42,303 bases of DNA from Methanoregula sp. PtaB.Bin085 (GTDB taxonomy: Archaea; Halobacteriota; Methanomicrobia; Methanomicrobiales; Methanospirillaceae): NCBI RefSeq assembly GCF_002067035.1, contig NZ_MVQB01000023.1, positions 1-42,303 on the forward strand, given 5' to 3'. The notes under the pieces were generated by a model. It was not told the DNA's origin. It saw only the letters and a program-made list of their open reading frames with translations, and searched no databases. Positions 8,650 through 37,150 of this stretch are shown piece by piece. How positions within the stretch are numbered: the first letter of the stretch is position 1; every line of letters begins with the position of its first letter. The position numbers and the translations under genes were made by a program.

Positions 8650-9932
8650 AAGAGAACCTGCGAAAACCGATCCTGTTCCTCATCATCGTCGTGGTCGGAT
8701 CAGTACTGGTTCTGTTCGATTTCCCTCTTACTGCCCTCCTGCCGCTGCTCATCGTCATCGGATTCGCCACCCTTCTCGCACTCGGCTCCATAACCATACC
8801 CGAGATCCGGGGGGGTATTGCAAGTCTCGGCAAATCCGGCATCCTCAAACGCCTCAATGACATAAAAATCTTTGAAAAAACCCCGGCCGGTGCGCAAGCG
8901 GCAGCGGCAAAGCCTGTTCCCGCCCATGCCCCCATCAAAAAGGAAGAACCGAAAAAGAAAGGATCAGAGGAAAAACCCGGGCTGGCTTCCCACATCTCAA
9001 CCTTATTTTCCTCCATCCGCTCGGTGGGGTCGATCCTGCAGCAGAAGGGAAAACGGGAGAAGAACGTCGAGGAGATCGACAAGATTCTTGACAGGACGGT
9101 TACGGAGAAAGTATCAGCCCCGCCACCGGCTGCGGCGGCGCCGGCAACTCCTGCCAAAGCGGGTGGGGCGGGTGGCGCTCAGCTTGACATGGATGATCCG
9201 TTCATGTCACTGTCTGCTGATGAGTTTGATGCAGGCCTGCTGGACGGCCTTGGCGACGACGAGGCGCAGGTGCAAGCCTCTCCGGCGCCGTCCGCTCCGG
9301 TACCGGATACCGGGGGACTTCTTCCGGTCTCCCCTGCTGAAGGCCCGGATCTCCTGGCCCCGGAGCTTGATGTCGATTCCGCAGCCAGCGATATCCTCAA
9401 ACAGGCCGGTGAGGGTGCCGGTGGGACCTCTGACGAGTTCAGCGGTCTTGACAGCGGCAGTCTCTCGGATGAGGATTTTGGCGACCTTGATAACCTGAAT
9501 CTTGACGATGTCAGTCTTGACGCTGATCTTGAAGGAGGGGATGCCGTTCCTGCGCCTTCGTCTGCACCGGCTGCACCCGTACCGCAGGCACCGGCCGCTG
9601 CACCCGGCTCCGACAGCAATGCAGTAAAAACCGCGTGGATACCGTCCGATGCCCCAAAAGATGCGGGAGAGGTCGAAGATGAGGTATCAACACAGGCCGA
9701 CATGGCAGCCTTCGCCAGCGGCGCCGGCGGCGACGAGGATCTGCTCAGCTCCCTTGCTGCGGATGTCAAGCATGTCAAGAAAGAGCAGGACCTGAGCCTG
9801 TTGCGGGAACTCAAGGATTTCAGGGCGCCGGCAACCGAGATCGAGAAAGAACTCAGCGGGATGTACGAGCGGATGGGCGCCGGAAAACCATCCCGGAAAA
9901 AAGAACCCCCTGCCACAAAGGGAATAAAATAG
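8646..9932 (+). CDS. Unrecognised two-TM protein with long acidic Ala/Pro tail, in the archaellum operon
   Basis: A 428-residue protein whose start overlaps the arlJ stop by 4 nt, so it is very likely coupled to ArlJ synthesis. Two TM helices lie at about 7-24 and 27-47. After them come a short amphipathic region (IPEIRGGIASLGKSGILKRL), a lysine/alanine stretch, a basic helix (about 125-160), and a long low-complexity segment rich in Asp, Ser, Leu and Ala/Pro (about 175-330). A short conserved-looking C-terminal helix is LLRELKDFRAPATEIEKEL. I do not recognise a family. Its place between arlJ and cheF suggests a cytoplasmic tether or adaptor at the motor base, but that is inference. Confidence 0.8.
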   Translation: MKENLRKPILFLIIVVVGSVLVLFDFPLTALLPLLIVIGFATLLALGSITIPEIRGGIASLGKSGILKRLNDIKIFEKTPAGAQAAAAKPVPAHAPIKKEEPKKKGSEEKPGLASHISTLFSSIRSVGSILQQKGKREKNVEEIDKILDRTVTEKVSAPPPAAAAPATPAKAGGAGGAQLDMDDPFMSLSADEFDAGLLDGLGDDEAQVQASPAPSAPVPDTGGLLPVSPAEGPDLLAPELDVDSAASDILKQAGEGAGGTSDEFSGLDSGSLSDEDFGDLDNLNLDDVSLDADLEGGDAVPAPSSAPAAPVPQAPAAAPGSDSNAVKTAWIPSDAPKDAGEVEDEVSTQADMAAFASGAGGDEDLLSSLAADVKHVKKEQDLSLLRELKDFRAPATEIEKELSGMYERMGAGKPSRKKEPPATKGIK

Positions 9933-24604: not shown

Positions 24605-24730
24605 CCCCGGGAGGAAGGCAGCATGCGGGAGCGGCCCCCCCCTGATCCCCCTATACGGCCTGCTCGACGGGACGGAGGTCGGCAGATCCCGATCGCCCCC
24701 GGCCCCACCACTATCAGATACGATCCCTGC
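24605..24730. repeat. Module tail repeat, copy B
   Basis: Sequence downstream of the left propeller/PKD gene that matches the tail after the right one (about 30073-30300). Shared landmarks are GCATGCGGGA, TATACGGCCTGCTC and TATCAGATACGATCCCT. It marks the end of the duplicated unit. Copy B lacks about 100 nt of hairpin-rich sequence found in copy A. Confidence 0.55.
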
Positions 24731-24757
24731 CGTGTTTACTCGGGAATCATACAACAA

Positions 24758-27700
24758 TCATTCCCACTTCGGCCTTCTTCCCCTCATCACGAAAAAGCCG
24801 GCAACGGCAAGGGCTGCAGCCGCCACGATGAGAACCAGGTTCTGCAGGGCAAGGCCTGCAATCCACCCCATCATGCTCATAAAGATGCTGACGGCAGTTG
24901 TCGGGGGCTGGGCTTTTACCTGCTGCGGAATGACGGTCGGGGGAATCGTCGTTGTCGCGATAGTAGGAGGTGGTGTACTGGCACTGGTGAACAGGGCATG
25001 GATACTGAAGTGGGATACCGGTGCCGTGACAATACCCGTTGATCCGTCAAAGGTTGTCGGCAGATCCTGCCAGGTCCCAATTTTCCTGTCAAAGGTTTTT
25101 ACCGAGTAATCGCGCCCCCACCGGGGCTGCACCGGGGATAACGTGAGGGAGACCGGCGGAGAGAAGGCTGCACCGTCCGGGCCGATCTCGTACGCAATAC
25201 CGTCGAAGACAAACACGGAAGCAGATGGCACCGGGGGGAGGTCTGCCATGGAAAGAACCCGTATCGTTACACTCTCAAGCGGTTTGCCTGCCGCGTCGCG
25301 AGCGGTTATTCCTTCACCAATGGTGATTGTTGCACGGCTATCGGATGACGTGAGCCGGGTCTCCTGCGATACGACTCCCTGTGCATTGGTATAGACCTTA
25401 GCCGAAACGCCGGGATCTGCCGTGACTTTTGGCTCCTGTGTCGCGGTTGGCGAAGGAGTCGGAACTGGGGCGGTTGTTGTCGCTGGTGACACGCCTGCAG
25501 CCGGCATCCCGGTGTCGGATTCGGAAACGGGATTGTATGGCTCAGACGGGCCGACATGGCTCGTGACGGAGAGGGTGATCAGCTGGAGCGGATTACCGGA
25601 GCCGGAGAGCTGGGTGATATAATAATTGGTGAAATAGGAGAATTGAGCCGGTATATCTGCTTCAAAATAATCCAGGTCACTGTCTGAGACTATATACCGT
25701 GTCACAAGGACAGAACCAACCCTGGTGCCTGAAGCAGGATCTGTTCCGTATGCGATGATGTATGTTTTGTCCCTGCCGGCCGCGGCTCCGCCGGTTCCGG
25801 CAACCCATGCTGATCTGATACTCATGTTCATGGTGGAGGATCCGATATTTCCGAGTGATGTCCGTGTGAACCTCGACGAGTAGCCTACGGTATCGACAGA
25901 TGTGAAACTGCTCGATAAAGCGATATCTGACAGGAGCGACCTGTCAGATGCTATTGCCCCCTCCCAGATTTCCGCATTGAGAGATCCCGATGACGGGTAC
26001 CTGCTGAAGGTAAGGCGTTCACTCACGTATACGGGATCTCCTACCGAGGGGGAAAATCCCCTTACTGCAATATCCGAGGTCTGGAGGGAACTGACCGATA
26101 AATTCCCGAACAATGTTCCGTTTCCTGTATCGGAAAATCCGATTGCATCAGATCCTGCAAACGTGATGTTCTGCCACCCGAATGACGGAGGAGGATGGGA
26201 GATAAGTACTCCTGATGATGGAAGGACAGGTATTCCTGCCATCGAACTGTTATAGATCAGGAACTGACCTCCGAACCTGTTGTCAACAATAATGCCTTCT
26301 ACCGGTGTGAATGCTGTTTCATGGGCACCCGGCAGGGCAGTGATATATGCAGTTCTGACGCGTGTTCCGGTACCGTAACTGTTCGTGGCATCGTGCCTGA
26401 CGTTGTATGTTCCCGGGATGGTGAATGTGTGGGTGGCATTCCGTTCGCTGCTGTCAACCGTTCCGTCGTTTTCAAAGTCCCACGCGAACGTGTCCGGTGA
26501 ACCGGTCGAAGTATCATTGAACTGGACAACGAGCGGCACGACTCCCGATAACGGACTGCCGGTGAAATCTGCCGCGGGGCTTCCTGCCGTGATCGTATGG
26601 TCTGCAGATACATTCCGGCAGTATTCATCGCTGATGGTGAGGTTCACGACGTACTGGCCGGCAGAAATAAAGACGTGATCCGGGTTCTGCTGGTAGGATA
26701 CCGATCCATCGCCAAAATCCCAGTACCAGTGTGATGGTCTGGTAATCCCGGTTTCATCAGTGAAATGAACGGCCAGGGGATCTCCGCCGCTTGTTGCATT
26801 CTCGGAGAAGAGAATTTCAGGACAGGTTTCTGGTGTCCCGTAGGTAAAGAGATGGATCTTTGAGCTGCCTGCATTCTCTTCGATCCAGATAATGCGGTTG
26901 CCGGAGATCCGGGGCGATTTTTTTGTGTTTGTTCCGGAGGACAGGAGCAGCTGCTCAGGGGGAAGACGTGCCGTGTCATTGATATAGATGTCACCTTGCA
27001 TCTGGTCCCGGTAATCGATCCAAACGATCCGGTCACCATCAACAGAAGGGAACATCACCGGATCGATGCCGTAACCGGCGGGCAGGTTGGCAGATACGAG
27101 GTTATCAGAGATACGCTGTTCCCCTCCTATGGGATCGTAACGGTAGATGTTTGGCACCGGGAACGGGTCGGTGTTCCAGTTGCGGTTATCTTCCCACACG
27201 ATGGTGTTTCCTGAAACTGAGGGTGCATCCTGCCACGCCCCGTCTGTCGATCCATCTGTCCCGACTCCAAGACCGTTATCAGGTGTGATGAGCGACTCCG
27301 TCCAGGTTGCGGTATCGTTCATGTAAATCTCCCGGTCGCCATTCAGGGTATTGCGGTAATCCTCCCAGACAATCCAGTTACCGGAAACTGCCGGATAGAC
27401 CTGGTCGGATCCGGAGGTACCTGGCGTGATGAGGTATTCCGTATCAGAAGCGAGATCGTACAGGTAGATATCCAGATCACCATTCCTCCTGTCCTGCCAG
27501 ACGATCTTATCCCCGGATAAAGCCGCATACTCCGGTGTGTCCGCATCGTTGCTGGTTATCCGGGTCAGGAGACTGGTGGTCAGGTTAAAAAGATAGATAT
27601 CGCCCGAAGCACGGTTCCGGAGATCGTGCCAGAGGATCCGATCTGAAAAAACTGCAGGATTCTTCTGGGTATTCATGTCGTTCGTAACGTGCGTCACATT

Positions 27701-27943
27701 ACCTGTGGCAATATCGTAGAGGAATATATCTCCTGCATTGCTGGTGGGGTCATCCCAGACAATACGGGAGCCATAAATGGCCGCATGCTGCTGGTACGTT
27801 GAAAAATTGGTCGGGATCAGGGTTTCTGTTCCAAACGGGTTCGCCAGGGCTGATGGGATAAGTAACAGGAAGAGAAGTGCTCCGCAGAGGGCCCGAAAAA
27901 ATGCTCTGTATTTTTTTCCCTTCCCCTTACGAGCTTCATTCAT
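24758..27943 (-). CDS. Giant surface protein: seven-bladed propeller, two PKD domains, C-terminal TM (module B)
   Basis: From the ATG at 27943 the product has 1061 residues and a signal peptide (basic KGKGKKYRAF, then LCGALLFLLLIPSALA). Seven TolB-like blades follow, each with a 'vsG..IVWeD.R.g..diYlyd' core (FSDRILWHD, LSGDKIVWQD, VSGNWIVWED, VSGNTIVWED and so on). Two PKD domains (WYWDFGDG, FAWDFENDG), an unrecognised domain of about 200 residues containing DNRFGGQFLIYN, a Thr/Pro spacer, a conserved domain of about 110 residues (VFVFDGIAYEIGPDGAAFSPP) and a TM helix with RGRRPKWE tail complete it. The frame also opens at 28036, but that start overlaps the calpain gene and puts 31 charged residues before the signal. 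It is probably a surface-anchored binding protein, cotranscribed with the calpain gene 53 nt upstream. Confidence 0.8.
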   Translation of the reverse strand: MNEARKGKGKKYRAFFRALCGALLFLLLIPSALANPFGTETLIPTNFSTYQQHAAIYGSRIVWDDPTSNAGDIFLYDIATGNVTHVTNDMNTQKNPAVFSDRILWHDLRNRASGDIYLFNLTTSLLTRITSNDADTPEYAALSGDKIVWQDRRNGDLDIYLYDLASDTEYLITPGTSGSDQVYPAVSGNWIVWEDYRNTLNGDREIYMNDTATWTESLITPDNGLGVGTDGSTDGAWQDAPSVSGNTIVWEDNRNWNTDPFPVPNIYRYDPIGGEQRISDNLVSANLPAGYGIDPVMFPSVDGDRIVWIDYRDQMQGDIYINDTARLPPEQLLLSSGTNTKKSPRISGNRIIWIEENAGSSKIHLFTYGTPETCPEILFSENATSGGDPLAVHFTDETGITRPSHWYWDFGDGSVSYQQNPDHVFISAGQYVVNLTISDEYCRNVSADHTITAGSPAADFTGSPLSGVVPLVVQFNDTSTGSPDTFAWDFENDGTVDSSERNATHTFTIPGTYNVRHDATNSYGTGTRVRTAYITALPGAHETAFTPVEGIIVDNRFGGQFLIYNSSMAGIPVLPSSGVLISHPPPSFGWQNITFAGSDAIGFSDTGNGTLFGNLSVSSLQTSDIAVRGFSPSVGDPVYVSERLTFSRYPSSGSLNAEIWEGAIASDRSLLSDIALSSSFTSVDTVGYSSRFTRTSLGNIGSSTMNMSIRSAWVAGTGGAAAGRDKTYIIAYGTDPASGTRVGSVLVTRYIVSDSDLDYFEADIPAQFSYFTNYYITQLSGSGNPLQLITLSVTSHVGPSEPYNPVSESDTGMPAAGVSPATTTAPVPTPSPTATQEPKVTADPGVSAKVYTNAQGVVSQETRLTSSDSRATITIGEGITARDAAGKPLESVTIRVLSMADLPPVPSASVFVFDGIAYEIGPDGAAFSPPVSLTLSPVQPRWGRDYSVKTFDRKIGTWQDLPTTFDGSTGIVTAPVSHFSIHALFTSASTPPPTIATTTIPPTVIPQQVKAQPPTTAVSIFMSMMGWIAGLALQNLVLIVAAAALAVAGFFVMRGRRPKWE

Positions 27944-27996
27944 CCGGACAATGGTAATAATTGTTGATTTTTTGGGAAGGATACTGGTTCTTTCCC

Positions 27997-29382
27997 CTAG
28001 CTTTTCCATACCCATCCAAATCCTTTGAAATGCCACCGGAACTTATCAACTGCAAGGGCAAAGATCCCGTCATTGAGGCTGAGGTCGATTTTTATCTCAG
28101 TCTTGTTCAGGGTCTTTGTGTAGTTCTCGGTATTTACCGGGACTGTCCAGGTTCCGGTATACAGGGCAGCGCCCATCTGCGTGTAATAAATAATATCCTC
28201 CTGTGTGGATCCCGCAGGAGCGATAAATTTCGGATCACCTCCGAATGCACTGGGTATCGCCATTCCCCATGGATTGCGTAAAACGATGTATTTCCGGTTA
28301 TTTACATAATGAACTCCGAGGATCGAATAGGAGTGACGGGCAACGATACTGTCATTGGTATATTTCACGCTCTTTTCCGGGTTGATCTTCGGATCAACCT
28401 TGTTGGCAGCATTGGCTTCTTCTGCTGTGGTATATGTCCATGCTGTCATCGGGTAAAGCGTCATGCCGGGGACAAAGGGCGCAGGATTATTTGCGCTGAC
28501 AACAATATAGCACCGCTTGTATATAGTATCAAAAACCGTGTCGCCTTTCGTATCTGCAGGATCGAACTCCGTCATATTAAAAGCAGACTGGGTCTGGGTC
28601 TTGTCATTGTCATAATCCAGTTTCGTATAATACCGTTTCCCGGTCAAGTGGGTAAGGCTGTTCAGCGGGTTTCCGGTATCAAATTTTGCAATGTTGGGAG
28701 TGTCCTTTTCATAACCATCCAGTTTATAGAAATCAGCATAACATTTCTCGTACAGTGCAGACCAGTAAGCGTTGGGATTGGCAGTCGAAGGCCGGCAGTA
28801 CACCCAGTCGCCAGGACCTTTCGCTCCCCATGGTAATGCATAGCTGGTCTTGTCATTTTCCCTGACCGGTGTAAATTTTACACCAGCAGCGGGCATGTAG
28901 GGTGGCTGTATGATGGCAGGATCACCTTTATACAGATACAGATAACAGGTGGCATTGTTGACAAGCGATCTCTTTACGAGATCCGGCCAGGTCCATGCGT
29001 ACGATGCGAGGGCAGCAGTAAACCAGCAGTTCAGGGAACAACCCTGGTTCACGTCATTGATATCTGGTGGTGGACATGCAAATCCTCCGGCATTGTTTAC
29101 GCTCCATATACTGACGGCAGATGAACAGCGGGGGACAGAATCACCGGTCCTGGCCGACTGCGGGGAGTTCTTGTCAGCCTTTGTGATATCCGGGAACAGG
29201 GGAGATCCGTTTTTTGGATCGAATAACTGGTCAAACGGCAGCTGAAGCTCTTCTTCAATGATCTTTTTCCTTTCGGCCGGGTCCAGGCTTTTCCAATCGA
29301 TATTTGATCCTTTTCTTGAGCAAACCAGTGCGTAGGGATTGATAGCACCTGTTGCGAAAAGATCTGTTTTTTTACCTACCAT
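27997..29382 (-). CDS. Calpain-like cysteine protease (peptidase C2), module B
   Basis: A 461-residue soluble protein without signal peptide. The calpain catalytic core is visible: VNQGCSLNCWFTAALA with nucleophile Cys119, matching the calpain pattern QGxxGDCW, His350 in ARHSYSILGVHYV, and Asn370 in YIVLRNPWG. The Asn-Pro-Trp-Gly block after the His is diagnostic of family C2. As in calpains, a 'LFDP..GSP' element (about 53-61) precedes the core. The segment between Cys and His is about 230 residues. No EF-hand or C2-like domain is evident. It is 52% through a HEAT-calpain-propeller module and paralogous to 33453-34895. The ATG at 29382 has GAGGTG nine nucleotides upstream. Confidence 0.82.
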   Translation of the reverse strand: MVGKKTDLFATGAINPYALVCSRKGSNIDWKSLDPAERKKIIEEELQLPFDQLFDPKNGSPLFPDITKADKNSPQSARTGDSVPRCSSAVSIWSVNNAGGFACPPPDINDVNQGCSLNCWFTAALASYAWTWPDLVKRSLVNNATCYLYLYKGDPAIIQPPYMPAAGVKFTPVRENDKTSYALPWGAKGPGDWVYCRPSTANPNAYWSALYEKCYADFYKLDGYEKDTPNIAKFDTGNPLNSLTHLTGKRYYTKLDYDNDKTQTQSAFNMTEFDPADTKGDTVFDTIYKRCYIVVSANNPAPFVPGMTLYPMTAWTYTTAEEANAANKVDPKINPEKSVKYTNDSIVARHSYSILGVHYVNNRKYIVLRNPWGMAIPSAFGGDPKFIAPAGSTQEDIIYYTQMGAALYTGTWTVPVNTENYTKTLNKTEIKIDLSLNDGIFALAVDKFRWHFKGFGWVWKS

Positions 29383-29444: not shown

Positions 29445-29586
29445 TGGAGAAAAAAATCCTGAATATGTGATTAAACCATAGTGTATGTTAATTCTATCTT
29501 TATATTGCAGACATCTGGCGTTATCCGATAATTTACGTGAAATATCTGAAAATTGACGTAAAAATAAAAAATTTTCCGTCCGCAAT

Positions 29587-29866
29587 GTTTTTATGCCGGT
29601 TCCTCCGGCATGTTCTTTGCCAGGTACCATGCATGGATGGCAAGCAGGAAATAGACCGGGAAGAGCAGGCCGTAGGTATTGGTCTCCCCCATCTCCTTAA
29701 AAGTCCAGACCGTGACGGTGATATCGATCTGGAAGATCATGATGCCCCACCATTTCCCGAGATACCCGTACCCGAGTCCGGGCAGGAGGAAGTTTAAAAA
29801 CCCGGCTATGAGCGGGTTCTTCTGTATGCGCGGTCGCTGGTACAACCCGCGGGGGAGGATGAGGGG
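29587..29866. repeat. 280-bp near-identical repeat, copy B
   Basis: Matches 35100-35379 over 280 bp with a single difference that I can see (G at 29789, A at 35302). It encodes the C-terminal membrane part of the HEAT protein. Sequence on the far side is only about 80-85% alike, so the identity stops abruptly at the deletion junction. Confidence 0.85.
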
Positions 29867-30075
29867 CGGGATGGCATCCTTGCTGTTCATGCTGCCCAGT
29901 GCAACGGCTGCCTGTCAGTGGGCCTCGCTGACCGGATCGAGCATCATACCGGCTAGGGCGGACACCGCGGCGGGATCCCCTGTCTGGGTGAGTGCCCCGA
30001 TGGCACCAAACGGAATCTCTGGTTCTTTCTTTTCAGGGCCGGGACGAGCAGCGCGACCGTATCATGCCCCATCTC
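29591..30075 (-). pseudogene. Broken HEAT-repeat membrane protein (module B)
   Basis: Compared with the intact paralog at 35104-36066, this copy lacks the first HEAT repeats and about 372 nt (124 codons) in the middle. The deletion joins two places that both read GGGG(A/C)GGGA and encode PPLI. Upstream of the junction the Trp codon of 'VRWQAA' has become TGA, so the reading frame is split. An ORF of 99 residues remains downstream (from 29890), starting MNSKDAIPPLI and continuing straight into the C-terminal membrane part (LNFLLPGLGYGYLGKWWG). It could still make a three-helix membrane peptide. Confidence 0.8.
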
Positions 30076-30300
30076 TCCCCCGGAGGAGGCATCATGCGGG
30101 ACAAGCCGTCTTGACCCCATATACGGCCTGCTCCACGGTTCGAATGGTCATCAGACCCGTGAGGATGATAAGTGTTGAGAGTCATCGGACCTGAGACACA
30201 AGAAGACCATCAGGTCTTCGCAGGACTCATCAAAGTCCTTCGCAGGCAAGGGTTAACAGACCCCAAGCCCCCGTGGTCCCATCATTATCAGATACGATCC
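30073..30300. repeat. Module tail repeat, copy A, with inserted hairpins
   Basis: Matches the tail at 24605-24730 but carries about 100 extra nt. The extra part contains perfect stems with ATCA in the loop: GGTC-ATCA-GACC (30146-30157), GAAGACC-ATCA-GGTCTTC (30202-30219) and AGGACT-CATCAA-AGTCCT (30222-30239). Stem sequences differ while the loop is kept, which suggests a selected RNA structure. Confidence 0.55.
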
Positions 30301-30319
30301 CTCCTGGTTTTTCCGCCGA

Positions 30320-30330
30320 TCTAAAAAAAC
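30320..30330 (-). terminator. Oligo-T after module A propeller/PKD gene
   Basis: On the minus strand T7 follows the stop of the 30334-33399 gene after 4 nt. This is a typical archaeal termination tract. Confidence 0.5.
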
Positions 30331-30333
30331 CGT

Positions 30334-33300
30334 TCACTCCCACTTCGGCTTTCCCCCCCGCATCATGAAAAAGCCGGCAACGGCAAGGGCTGCGACCGCT
30401 GTTATGATTACCAGGTTCTGCGTAACAAAGCCTGCAATCCATTCCATCATGCTCATAAAGATGCTGACGGCTGTTGTCGGAGGCTGGGCTTTTACCTGCT
30501 GCGGCATGACCGTCGGGGGTACTGTTGTTTCGGGGATGGTGGGAGGTGGTGTACTGGCGCTGGTGAACAGGGCATGGATACTGAAGTGGGATGCCGGTGC
30601 CATGACAGTTCCCGTTGATCCATCAAAGGTTGTCGGCAGATCCTGCCAGGTCCCGGATTTCCTGTCAAAGGTTTTTATCCAGTAATCGCGCCCCCACCGG
30701 GGCTGCACCGGGGATAATGAGAGGGAGACCGGCGGCGAGAAGGTTGCACCATCCGGCCCAATCTCGTATGCAATGCCGTCAAAGACAAAGACCGGATCGG
30801 AAGGCACGGGGGGGAGATCTGCCGTGGAAAGAACCTGCATCGTGATACGCTCAAGCGGTTCACCTGCCGCGTTGCGTGCGGTTATTCCTTCGCCGATGGT
30901 GATGGTTGCGCGGCCATCGGATGACGTGAGCCGGGTCTCCTGCGATACGACTCCCTGTGCATTGGTATAGACCTTTGCCGATACGCCGGGATCCGCTGTG
31001 ACTTTTGTCTCCTGTGTCGCGGTTGGTGATGGTGTCGGGACAGGGGTGTATGTTATCGATGGGGATACGCTCCCGGCCGGCATCCCGGCATCGGATTCCG
31101 ATACGGGAATGTATGGTTCAGGTGGACCGACATGGCTTGTTACGGAGAGGGTGATCAGCTGGAGTGGGTTGCCGGAACCTGCAAGCTGGGAAAGACCAAA
31201 TTTTGATAATCCACGTGGTGAATCTGCCACAAAGTAATCAAGGTTTGTATCCGGATCGCGGTACAGGAATTGGGTCGGCAGCACCTGCCCGATATTATCG
31301 TCACCGATCCGTACAAGGTAGGTATGTTCCCGGCCCTCGTGACTTGCGACCCACGAGGAATTAACGCTCACGTATAATCTGGCTGGCCCGCCCGGCGTGA
31401 ATGAAGTAAGGGTATTCCGAATCGTGTATGCAACACCAAGGACATGAGAGAAACCGCTGCTATGTCCTATATAACGGAACGTAGTCAGATCCGGATCAAG
31501 GACACCTTCCCAGACCTGTGTATTCATGGTTCCTCCTGCCGGATATAAGGGTAGTTCCAGCATGTAGAAAATTGAGCTGTCCGCTCCGGTGGCCGGCGAG
31601 AACCCGGCCGGATGAATAACATCAGAATAGAAAACCACTCCAGAAAGGTTTCCCATAATGGTTTCGTTGCCGAAGTTACGGAACCCGCTGTTATCATTTG
31701 ACCGGAAGGTGATGTTCTGCCAGCCATACTCAGTCAACTCCGGTGTTGTGAGAACAGAAACAGATGGCATGGAATACCCGGGGAGGGTAGTTCCGTTGTA
31801 GACAAGGAACTGGCCGCCGAAACGGTTTACGATGATAAACCCTTCAATCCCCGTGATGAAATCCTGGTTTGCACCAGTCAGTGCATGGATGGTGGTCGTT
31901 GCTGTTGAATTCCCGTACTCGTTTTCATCGATTAGACGAACCGTGTAAACCCCACCGTTACTGTAAGTGTGGGAAACGGGATTTGTCTCTGCATATGTTC
32001 CATCGCCGAATGACCAGTTCCATGCCGTTGCTGCTTCCGATGTATCCGTGAAAGTGACATCAAGAGGAACCATTCCCGAAAGAGGGATGGCTGATATACC
32101 GGCAATCGGGGCTGCCCCTGCTGTTATCCGATAGGCCGGATCGATCTCAGTTGCGTTCCTGCACAGCGGGTTATCGACGATCAGCTGGACATCATAATTA
32201 CCAGGTTTGTCATATGTCCAGACCGGGTTTTGGAGGGAGGAATAATTACCGTCTCCGAATGACCAGTTCCAGTGCGCTATCGGATTCGTTGGCGAAACAA
32301 CTGAGGCATCGTTGAACGAGACTTCGAAGGGTACAGCACCGGCCTGCGAAGGGGCGATGGTGAAATCGGCATCCGGACAGACCTCCTCAGTGCCAATGGT
32401 GTACAGGTAGATCATATCAGGGCTACCGGAATCACGCCATACGATACGGTCACCGGAAATTCTCAGGTTCTCTTTTGTGGTTGAACCATCGGTATTGGAA
32501 ACCTGCGTTTCGGATTCAGAGATGGCGGTATCATTCAGGAATACATTCTCATATTTCTTCCAGATAATCCGCGATCCATCGATATCCGGGAAATAATTCT
32601 CATCCAAGTTCGGCGTAATATCGGAAATATCCCCGGTTGCCAGATCCATCATGTAAACAAGATAGGTCCCTTCATGTGTATCTACCCAGACAATATGGTT
32701 GTTGTCAATTGCCGGCTCTATCTGCTCTTCATCCATCCCAAAATTGACCGGCTGGAAGATTGTCTGGTTGCCGGCGTAATCATAGACGGAAACCATCGGA
32801 GGCCAGTAACTGCCATTTTCCCATACAATCACGTTGTCAGAGACATGGGGCATTATCTGTGAGCCATCACTATCACTCACTTGAAGGACAGTATCTCCTG
32901 AAATAGAATACAGGTAGATATTATCGGTAAAGTCACCATTCCGGGCATCCTGCCAGACCACAAGGTCGCCATCAATATCGGGATTGGTCTGATCACCGGT
33001 CTCATTGCCGATACGGATTGTGATGCCGGTATCGAGGTCGTACAGGACGACATCATACTCATTGCCAAAGGAGGAGAACCGGTCATCTACCCATGAAAGA
33101 TAATGTCCGGAGATGACCGGTTGGAGTTCCCCGACTGGCCCATCCGTTATCTGATATTCGGAACCCGTTGCGATGTTATACAGGTATATATTCCGGTCTC
33201 CGGTCCTGTCATCACTCCAGACAATATAATCCCCGAATATTGCAGGTTCCCAGTGGCGGACACTCGTGTTCGATATAGTAACAGGGGTGAGGGTGCCGGA

Positions 33301-33399
33301 AATTGAATCACTCGTTACAGGATAAACTATGAAAACAATTAGAAAAAAACTGACAAAAAAAAGAGAATTTTTCTTCTTTCTTCGGGGATCTTCGAACAT
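30334..33399 (-). CDS. Giant surface protein: seven-bladed propeller, two PKD domains, C-terminal TM (module A)
   Basis: From the ATG at 33399 it has 1021 residues: a signal peptide (RRKKK, then LFFVSFFLIVFIVYPVTS), seven propeller blades (FGDYIVWSDDR, IDGDLVVWQDAR, ISGDRIVWRD and others), two PKD domains (HWNWSFGDG, AWNWSFGDG), the domain with VNRFGGQFLVYNG, a Thr/Pro spacer, the roughly 110-residue domain with VFVFDGIAYEIGPDG, and a C-terminal TM ending RGGKPKWE. The C-terminal 250 residues are nearly the same as in the module B paralog, while propeller and PKD parts are much more diverged. An upstream start (33435) adds 12 residues; 33399 puts the charged cluster directly before the signal and has a GGGATG about 9 nt upstream. 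The calpain gene ends 53 nt upstream. Confidence 0.82.
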   Translation of the reverse strand: MFEDPRRKKKNSLFFVSFFLIVFIVYPVTSDSISGTLTPVTISNTSVRHWEPAIFGDYIVWSDDRTGDRNIYLYNIATGSEYQITDGPVGELQPVISGHYLSWVDDRFSSFGNEYDVVLYDLDTGITIRIGNETGDQTNPDIDGDLVVWQDARNGDFTDNIYLYSISGDTVLQVSDSDGSQIMPHVSDNVIVWENGSYWPPMVSVYDYAGNQTIFQPVNFGMDEEQIEPAIDNNHIVWVDTHEGTYLVYMMDLATGDISDITPNLDENYFPDIDGSRIIWKKYENVFLNDTAISESETQVSNTDGSTTKENLRISGDRIVWRDSGSPDMIYLYTIGTEEVCPDADFTIAPSQAGAVPFEVSFNDASVVSPTNPIAHWNWSFGDGNYSSLQNPVWTYDKPGNYDVQLIVDNPLCRNATEIDPAYRITAGAAPIAGISAIPLSGMVPLDVTFTDTSEAATAWNWSFGDGTYAETNPVSHTYSNGGVYTVRLIDENEYGNSTATTTIHALTGANQDFITGIEGFIIVNRFGGQFLVYNGTTLPGYSMPSVSVLTTPELTEYGWQNITFRSNDNSGFRNFGNETIMGNLSGVVFYSDVIHPAGFSPATGADSSIFYMLELPLYPAGGTMNTQVWEGVLDPDLTTFRYIGHSSGFSHVLGVAYTIRNTLTSFTPGGPARLYVSVNSSWVASHEGREHTYLVRIGDDNIGQVLPTQFLYRDPDTNLDYFVADSPRGLSKFGLSQLAGSGNPLQLITLSVTSHVGPPEPYIPVSESDAGMPAGSVSPSITYTPVPTPSPTATQETKVTADPGVSAKVYTNAQGVVSQETRLTSSDGRATITIGEGITARNAAGEPLERITMQVLSTADLPPVPSDPVFVFDGIAYEIGPDGATFSPPVSLSLSPVQPRWGRDYWIKTFDRKSGTWQDLPTTFDGSTGTVMAPASHFSIHALFTSASTPPPTIPETTVPPTVMPQQVKAQPPTTAVSIFMSMMEWIAGFVTQNLVIITAVAALAVAGFFMMRGGKPKWE

Positions 33400-33452
33400 G
33401 ATCAGTGACATCCCTGATTCGTCTTCAATTATCACAATAATTTATTTTCAAA

Positions 33453-34957: not shown

Positions 34958-35099
34958 CACTCTAAAAAATCTATGAATAGTGTTAATAATTCTCAATATT
35001 CTTCGTATGGCTTTTAATTCGGGCAGAAGGAGAAAGCTGACTGATTCTTGAAAATATTCATGAAATTCAGGAATTAATCAATTATTTTTCCCGCGCAAT

Positions 35100-35379
35100 A
35101 TTTTTATGCCGGTTCCTCCGGCATGTTCTTTGCCAGGTACCATGCATGGATGGCAAGCAGGAAATAGACCGGGAAGAGCAGGCCGTAGGTATTGGTCTCC
35201 CCCATCTCCTTAAAAGTCCAGACCGTGACGGTGATATCGATCTGGAAGATCATGATGCCCCACCATTTCCCGAGATACCCGTACCCGAGTCCGGGCAGGA
35301 GAAAGTTTAAAAACCCGGCTATGAGCGGGTTCTTCTGTATGCGCGGTCGCTGGTACAACCCGCGGGGGAGGATGAGGGG
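35100..35379. repeat. 280-bp near-identical repeat, copy A
   Basis: Partner of 29587-29866; it lies at the 3' end of the intact HEAT-repeat gene. Confidence 0.85.
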
Positions 35380-36066
35380 AGGGACACCGCACTTCCGTGA
35401 GGCAAGGGCAGCCTCCCACCGGACATTCCGATCGGGATCGGCAAGCATGCGCACAATGGCAGGACCGGAACTACGGTCTCCGATATCGCCAAGGATCTGC
35501 ACGGCGCGGACCCGGACGCTGCTGTCAGTATCCTGACAAAGGGTTGCGAGAGGGGCAAGCGCGGCCGTTCCCGAGCCCTTCAGCCGCTCCCAGTCCTGCA
35601 TGGCGGCATGGTACCACGCCCAGCCGGTCTCATCGGAGGGCTGGTACCCGATCCGGGCAAGCGATATCGCTGACCCGTACCGGACATACTTGTCCGTGTC
35701 TTCCAGTCCGTGGATCAGGGGCGGGATGGCATCCTTGCTGTTCATGCTGCTCAGTGCAATGGCTGCCTGCCAGCGGACCTCGCTCACCGGATCGAGCATC
35801 ATACCGGCCAGCGCGGGCACGGCGGAGGGATCCCCTATCTGGGCGAGTGCCCCGATGGCGCCGAGCCGGAGGTTCCGGTCCCTTTTTCTGAGTGCCGAAA
35901 CGAGCAGCGCGACCGCTTCAGGCCCTATCTCTCCAAGGGCATGTACTGCGTCGGACTGGATATCCGGATCGCGGTACGACAGTGCCCGGACAAGCCCCGG
36001 GATATCCCGGTTCCTCTGCAGTGTTCCGATATCGGGTTTTTTCCTCGGGATCAGGTCGAGCAGCAT
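35104..36066 (-). CDS. HEAT-repeat protein with C-terminal membrane domain (module A, intact)
   Basis: A 320-residue protein (324 if started at the GTG at 36078). The first 230 residues are HEAT-type helical repeats of about 31 residues, each with the pattern 'D....vr..A..aLg.iG...av..L' (for example DPDIQSDAVHALGEIGPEAV, VRVRAVQILGDIGDRSSGPAI). A basic linker leads to about three hydrophobic helices, the first with LNFLLPGLGYGYLGKWWG, a glycine-rich TM2-like motif. The repeats should face the cytoplasm and act as a docking scaffold. The ATG at 36066 is preferred since AGGTGAT lies seven nucleotides before it; the GTG at 36078 abuts the upstream stop. The HEAT family class (PBS-lyase-like) is recognised, the function is not. 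Confidence 0.8.
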   Translation of the reverse strand: MLLDLIPRKKPDIGTLQRNRDIPGLVRALSYRDPDIQSDAVHALGEIGPEAVALLVSALRKRDRNLRLGAIGALAQIGDPSAVPALAGMMLDPVSEVRWQAAIALSSMNSKDAIPPLIHGLEDTDKYVRYGSAISLARIGYQPSDETGWAWYHAAMQDWERLKGSGTAALAPLATLCQDTDSSVRVRAVQILGDIGDRSSGPAIVRMLADPDRNVRWEAALASRKCGVPPLILPRGLYQRPRIQKNPLIAGFLNFLLPGLGYGYLGKWWGIMIFQIDITVTVWTFKEMGETNTYGLLFPVYFLLAIHAWYLAKNMPEEPA

Positions 36067-36078
36067 CGGTACTATCAC

Positions 36079-37053
36079 CTACAGGTCTGACATTCGTTCC
36101 GCAAGGTAGTACGTGTGGATTGCGGCAATCGCGGTCAGTGGATACGCGATCAGGTAGGGGAGCCAAGGTCCCATGGCGAGCTGGGCGAGAACGAGGATGC
36201 ACATGTAGGCCATGAAGACCGGGAAGCCCCACCACCTGCCGATGTAATTGTACCCGATACCCAGGAAGAGGAAGTTCAGGATCGCTGCCGCGGCAGGATC
36301 CGGCCCGGTACGTTCCCTTCCTGCCACCATCAGGGGGATATCGTGGGAGGCAACCCCGCAGTCCAGTGCCGCCAGGACTGCCCGCCAGCGGACGCGGGGA
36401 TCCCGATCCCTCAGCGCACCCTGGCAGGCTGCCTGAGCCCGGTGGTCGGCATTCCCCCCGATGAGCGACACGATGGTTGCGCGGGTCCCGGGATCATCGT
36501 CCCTCAACAGGTCCCAGAGAACGGGCAGGGCCGCGGAACCAAGTTTTTTTACCCCCTCCCAGTCATACCTGGCGATCAGCAGGTATGCTGTATCGGTCTC
36601 GTTCTCCGGTTTCCAGCCAAGCCTGCAGAGCGCTGTTGCAGCCCCGTACCGCAGGTAGCGGTTACGGTCCCGCAGGAAGGGGAGCAGCGCCGGTATCGTC
36701 TCCGGAGAGCCGATCTCGCCGAGAGTAAGGGCAGCGGCCCACCGTACCTCAAGAGAGGCATCGCGGTTGAGGAGTACAGCGACCCGGTCTGCTGCCCGAA
36801 AATCCCGGATGGCGCCAAGTGCTTCAAGAGCACCGAGCCTGACCGGGACGGACGGGGAACCCAGTGCCTGGATCAGCCGGGGGACCGCTTGCCTGCCACA
36901 CCTGCCAAGCGCTTCGGCAGCCTGCCACTGTACCTTCGGATCCGGATGCCCGAGATCCCGGACCAGGGCCGACAGGTCATTTTCAGAAAGCCGGTGCCCG
37001 CTCTCTGCAGCTGTCGTTCCAGGATCATTTGGGGGGATCGTGGCAGAAAAAAT
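36079..37053 (-). CDS. Second HEAT-repeat membrane protein, without a standard start codon
   Basis: The minus frame is open from 37086 to the stop at 36079 and encodes HEAT repeats (LSALVRDLGHPDPKVQWQ, ASLEVRWAAALTLGEIGS, LRYGAATALCRLGWKP) followed by the same membrane domain as its neighbour (ILNFLFLGIGYNYIGRWWG). No ATG, GTG or TTG occurs in frame before the TTG at 36507, which lies inside the repeats. An ATT at 37053 has AGGAG seven nucleotides upstream and would give 324 residues, the same as the neighbouring paralog counted from its GTG, and the first repeat then aligns within one residue. So either a rare ATT start is used, or the gene has lost its start. Its stop directly abuts the next HEAT gene. 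Confidence 0.6.
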   Translation of the reverse strand: MFSATIPPNDPGTTAAESGHRLSENDLSALVRDLGHPDPKVQWQAAEALGRCGRQAVPRLIQALGSPSVPVRLGALEALGAIRDFRAADRVAVLLNRDASLEVRWAAALTLGEIGSPETIPALLPFLRDRNRYLRYGAATALCRLGWKPENETDTAYLLIARYDWEGVKKLGSAALPVLWDLLRDDDPGTRATIVSLIGGNADHRAQAACQGALRDRDPRVRWRAVLAALDCGVASHDIPLMVAGRERTGPDPAAAAILNFLFLGIGYNYIGRWWGFPVFMAYMCILVLAQLAMGPWLPYLIAYPLTAIAAIHTYYLAERMSDL

Positions 37054-37150
37054 ACAGATGCTCCTGAATTCAGTATGCCGCGATACTCAATATCAACTTT
37101 ATGGAAATCAGGGGAAATGGAAAGGACGCGGGAAAAAGAGGGATGAACGA

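Follow-up and report, generated by a model that had tools for sequence, protein, structure and literature searches.

The window analysed here is the whole 42,303-nt stretch of contig NZ_MVQB01000023.1, from a Methanoregula genome (Methanomicrobiales) of 2.9 Mb that is 98% complete. On its minus strand, from an ATG, lies the gene for a 461-aa protein of the calpain family (Peptidase_C2), P0001 (27997 to 29382), with Q113, C119, H350 and N370. An N-terminal domain, residues 11-66 (GAINPYAL ... LFDPKNGSPLF; 29185 to 29352, minus strand), is delimited by alignment, by motifs found in bacteria and by a pLDDT of about 90. The gene is followed on the same strand (24758 to 28036) by one encoding a secreted beta-propeller (TIGR04275) with PKD domains, middle domain and C-terminal TM anchor. 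The listed start of this partner is a GTG, which makes it overlap P0001; an ATG near 27940, before a hydrophobic leader, looks like a better start. Its fold is best matched by 1l0q, the structure of an archaeal surface-layer protein with propeller and PKD, and a BFVD search with the propeller model returned generic propeller and fibre folds only. The partner's middle domain is also found, with lower scores, across many surface-type proteins of great length in Methanomicrobiales (118 of 232 genomes in all).

The arrangement is repeated upstream. A second calpain-family protein, P0002 (33453 to 34901, minus strand; 482 aa; Q185, C191, H407, N428; Pfam 40.7 bits), has a core 38% identical to that of P0001, and 17 bases downstream of its gene begins another gene for a propeller protein with PKD, middle domain and TM anchor (30334 to 33435, minus strand). 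The genome has three proteins with TIGR04275 repeats, so far as they were found, and two of them adjoin the calpains. Beyond P0002 lies a conserved neighbor, P0003 (35104 to 36078, minus strand), a HEAT-repeat protein by Pfam with C-terminal hydrophobic segments. Then comes a second HEAT-repeat reading frame (36079 to 37086, minus strand), open from 37086 for about 335 codons; its first ATG, GTG or TTG comes only at 36507, which may mean an odd start or a damaged gene. Between the two calpain-propeller copies is a HEAT gene remnant with an internal deletion and a stop (29550 to 30078, minus strand), which matches the gene at 35063-35934 over 322 bp at 95.3% (the HEAT 3' end) and 223 bp at 85% identity. 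The 3' end of the first propeller gene (24683 to 25614, minus strand) is likewise 84.7% identical in DNA, over 936 bp, to 30257-31190. Rfam and tRNA scans of the window were empty, and a scan for promoter and terminator consensus sequences gave counts not above expectation.

Family C2 is defined by a catalytic Cys, His and Asn together with an oxyanion Gln (PMC4631099). P0001 has them in that order: Q113 and C119 within QGCSLNCW, H350 within ARHSYSILG and N370 within RNPWG, the codons for Cys, His and Asn starting at 29028, 28335 and 28275. A preliminary description of the gene, made from the letters of the window, had pointed to this frame, to Cys119, His350 and Asn370 and to the motifs QGxxxxCW, H-S/A-Y-S and RNPWG, all of which are where it placed them, and had called the protein a calpain-like protease. 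The HMM search that it proposed scores P0001 at 41.1 bits with PF00648 (E 1.5e-10), above the curated cut-off of 23.8, and this match is not chance. A phmmer search of PDB chains with P0001 gave weak matches, the best of them calpains with the regions of Cys, His and Asn in order. A profile of 45 homologues, drawn from the window and from fetched contigs, found calpain-3 at E 2.8e-29 across both subdomains.

The structure prediction that it also proposed agrees. The same 45 homologues gave an AlphaFold2 model with a pTM of 0.85 and a mean pLDDT of 77. Its 34 best Foldseek matches in the PDB, which are all those with E of 0.001 or less, are calpain protease cores without exception (best E 1.6e-8). 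Against 6bjd about 390 columns align at a target TM of 0.60, the TM values being moderate because loops differ, and the three catalytic residues align with the Cys, His and Asn of calpain. A fold other than papain-like, or catalytic residues out of register, was to count against the assignment; the model and its PDB matches instead have the two-subdomain papain-like CysPc fold. Sequence and model together indicate that P0001 is very probably a catalytically competent cysteine protease of the calpain family (MEROPS C2 / PF00648).

Three glutamates that I take to be calcium ligands of the mu-calpain protease core (those of YEAL and DGEFW and the one after RNPWG) are replaced in the profile of the 45 homologues when it is aligned with calpain cores. 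Peptidase_C2 is the sole Pfam domain reported in P0001; the search found neither a C2-like nor a penta-EF-hand domain, just as the preliminary description had remarked on the lack of a calcium-binding domain. P0001 thus has neither the core ligands nor the added domains of the classical Ca2+-dependent calpains. Since the eukaryotic ligands are not conserved, calcium dependence is unlikely, and P0001 probably works independently of Ca2+.

Q113, C119, E212 and H350 are invariant in all 34 archaeal and all 52 bacterial homologues, 86 in all. The Asn position holds N in every one of the 52 bacterial sequences; among the archaea 27 have N and six have D, and one sequence is truncated. Median core identity is 30% among the archaea, members of one order, 29% between archaea and bacteria, and 41-44% among bacteria of many phyla. 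Archaeal members have often lost the Trp of NPWG, and there are short archaeal forms that lack the N-terminal domain.

Judged by the alignment profile, the calpain gene is present in 45 of 232 Methanomicrobiales genomes (25 of the 135 good ones), in three families and 13 of 40 genera. The Pfam model, run on 393 genomes sampled across the phylum, was positive in 14, all of them Methanomicrobiales. A pattern-limited scan of 84,980 species, with a 7-row subset of a 24-row alignment as query, gave archaeal matches in this order only and many bacterial ones; a single-protein scan of genome contigs gave no relative. Another genome of the genus (G105) carries its calpain locus on JAJRBZ010000047.1. 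The nearest relatives found outside the archaea are bacterial, and what they have in common with the archaeal proteins includes, besides the core, the N-terminal region (GxxNPYAL ... LFDP). In trees, the archaeal sequences form one group, or come close to it, adjoining a large clade of bacteria, and the two eukaryotic cores branch separately. Archaeal monophyly (support 19) is neither shown nor rejected, and a common side for archaeal and eukaryotic sequences (p-AU 0.11) is not rejected. Six bacterial calpain loci (L073, L075, L076, L081, L082 and L088) have nearby a protein of about 177 aa without Pfam family; in L073 its gene (9230-9763) is directly downstream of the calpain on the same strand, and the product is possibly an inhibitor or partner.

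According to Rawlings 2015 (PMC4631099) and Veselenyiova 2022 (PMC9380684), there is no calpain in any archaeon. Archaea of one order do have calpains, in many genomes, and some may already figure in automatic database annotations. The preliminary description had termed the family mainly eukaryotic with scattered bacterial members, in line with the literature. It had also called the protease archaeal, and this stands: the host is in the same GTDB genus as Methanoregula, the gene order recurs in other genomes, and the gene occurs in single-contig genomes too. Literature searches for calpain in methanogens, or for Methanoregula with PKD and propeller, turned up nothing relevant. What the preliminary description overlooked, right as it was on both calpain and archaea, was the second calpain-like gene and the conserved neighborhood. 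Its call proves somewhat more interesting than it stated, because the literature denies archaeal calpains and because the calpain belongs to a conserved yet variable pair with a propeller gene. That pair is the larger result.

Of 33 archaeal loci, 32 have a propeller gene directly after the calpain gene and on its strand, as do 7 of another 8 non-redundant loci, which makes 39 of 41; both exceptions stop at a contig end. The pairing holds for long and short calpain forms alike, and in L064, L068 and L126 the two genes overlap by 4 bases. Seven genomes match the propeller strongly but have no calpain; in them the propeller gene is cut at or near a contig edge on the calpain side. There are also intact propeller paralogues with no adjoining calpain, at 5729-8506 of L157 and 5405-8299 of L158 (genomes G164 and G515). 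HEAT genes, usually two together, lie nearby, upstream or downstream, in 20 of the 33 loci (about 60%) and are therefore common, not universal.

The two genes also vary together. In the tandem duplication within the window, self-comparison finds the flanks alike and the interior, calpain plus ectodomain, with no detectable DNA similarity. Among close relatives, where the neighboring OTC gene is 86-97% identical, calpain core and propeller fall as low as 30-43% and HEAT genes lie at 64-90%. Thus L169 and L171 share 97% in OTC, 90% in HEAT, 37% in calpain and 43% in propeller; L128 and L133 share 92% in OTC, 64% in HEAT, 39% in calpain, 33% in propeller, 80% in PKD and 71% in the middle domain; in L143 and L144 calpain and propeller are both high, at 88 and 86. 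Over 51 near pairs the Spearman correlation between calpain and propeller identity is 0.83, a value inflated by duplicate loci and shared ancestry and so supportive only; PKD and middle-domain identity track calpain identity as well (0.77 and 0.65). Over all pairs, most of them saturated, the calpain-propeller correlation is 0.09. GC3 is 49% in the calpain genes, 54% in the propeller genes and 67% in HEAT and other genes. These comparisons suggest that calpain and propeller have been replaced together between species, rather than drifting steadily. Gradual fast evolution as the only cause of calpain divergence is thought unlikely, given near pairs with equally similar flanks whose calpains are 81-95% identical in some cases and 34-41% in others.

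The genes that flank the module in the window are, to go by their sequence, presumably those for pelota and FKBP. The interval between them is 14.4 kb here and 1.2-2.3 kb in seven genomes of the same genus, and in those of the seven that were inspected it contains no module gene. By this comparison sister species lack the module at the site where the window has it. In other genomes it is found elsewhere, with the OTC gene or a TraB-like gene as its neighbor. Several Methanoregula genomes have, at or beside the insertion site, a lipoprotein-like gene (about 364-370 aa, with a short hydrophobic leader and Cys), seen both with the module (L098, L130, L131) and at empty sites (L163-L166).

I propose, with a probability of roughly 0.6, that P0001 is an active archaeal protease of the calpain family that works with a hypervariable surface propeller in a module of the Methanomicrobiales. 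The order of the module would be calpain, then secreted, membrane-anchored propeller/PKD surface protein, often with two HEAT-repeat genes. Since calpain and propeller part vary, and apparently are replaced, jointly while the flanking parts are conserved, their products are most likely a matched pair. As the likeliest mechanism, the protease would act on its own propeller protein or be held and regulated by it, the direction being my inference. For example, the surface protein might be trimmed or released, or the protease might dock and cut what the propeller captures. By eye the calpains inspected have no recognizable signal peptide, and the ectodomain of the partner is presumably outside, so that direct contact is no more than possible.

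Might the module go further than this? It is possible, though I offer the idea tentatively, that it is an undescribed surface-recognition system of the Methanomicrobiales, in which a hypervariable propeller ectodomain is swapped, together with its cognate calpain, as one cassette between conserved anchors. If so, then a protease matched to a variable surface protein might make a calpain-based system of recognition or antagonism, a suggestion to be held just as loosely. No description of such a system was found, in archaea or in bacteria.

The main rival has the propeller sensing a target outside the cell and the calpain serving as effector or processing enzyme, in a module for immunity, competition or interaction with phage. 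Much of what is described above would suit it: presence in a patchy 45 of 232 genomes, apparent replacement of calpain and propeller as a block, low GC3, sites occupied here and empty there, and tandem copies whose flanks are alike and whose interiors are not. However, no PADLOC model matches the calpains or the propellers (HEAT is matched generically), P0001 has no homologue in the phage collection, nor has its homologue from L061 any in plasmids, a pattern scan of IMG/VR viral contigs found none either, and surface proteins can vary for other causes. I regard this account as unlikely, short of improbable.

It is improbable that the protein is a pseudo-enzyme, a binding module built on the calpain fold. 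Non-peptidase homologues of calpains do exist (PMC4631099), six archaeal members have Asp in place of Asn, and the Trp of NPWG is often gone, but Gln, Cys and His persist in 86 of 86 sequences despite the 30% median core identity of the archaea. Also improbable is an ordinary cytosolic protease that stands alone beside incidental neighbors. Such neighbors are indeed missing beside the bacterial homologues and no signal peptide was seen, but genes that adjoin it in 39 of 41 archaeal loci, in three families and at several sites of insertion, are not there incidentally. That the gene is a contaminant, or came recently from a eukaryote, is suggested by a family long known mainly from eukaryotes, but may be counted as refuted by the synteny conserved over many archaeal genomes, some of them single contigs, by the N-terminal domain in common with bacteria and by the separate branching of the eukaryotic cores.

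The strict tie between calpain and variable surface propeller also points to a concrete function that could be tested in a microbial calpain; as of 2015, one bacterial calpain alone had been studied biochemically (PMC4631099). An argument on the origin of eukaryotic calpains has moreover drawn on the supposition that archaea have none (PMC4631099, PMC9380684). That premise needs correcting. The conclusion is not reversed, because the archaeal calpains sit next to the bacterial ones, although the tree test does not reject placing them with those of eukaryotes.

Among known systems, the bacterial C2 homologues (PMC4631099), from Methylophilus, Mitsuaria, Cellvibrio, Bacteroidales, Anaerolineae, Actinomycetota and others, have the same Peptidase_C2 core with triad and Gln, many of them the same GxxNPYAL...LFDP region as P0001, and neither group has calcium-binding domains. 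The archaeal forms differ in being far more divergent, often without Trp after Asn-Pro and in some cases short, and the tie to a propeller gene is archaeal, seen in no bacterial locus examined. The cores of eukaryotic calpain-1, -3 and -8 are of the same fold in both PC1 and PC2, and their Cys, His and Asn are in register with those of P0001, which is about 15% identical to them and has neither their calcium ligands, nor C2-like or EF-hand domains, nor shared neighbors. The partner, for its part, has propeller repeats and PKD in common with the archaeal surface-layer proteins (1l0q; TIGR04275), but it also has a middle domain and a TM anchor at the C-terminus, and just upstream of its gene lies that of a calpain.
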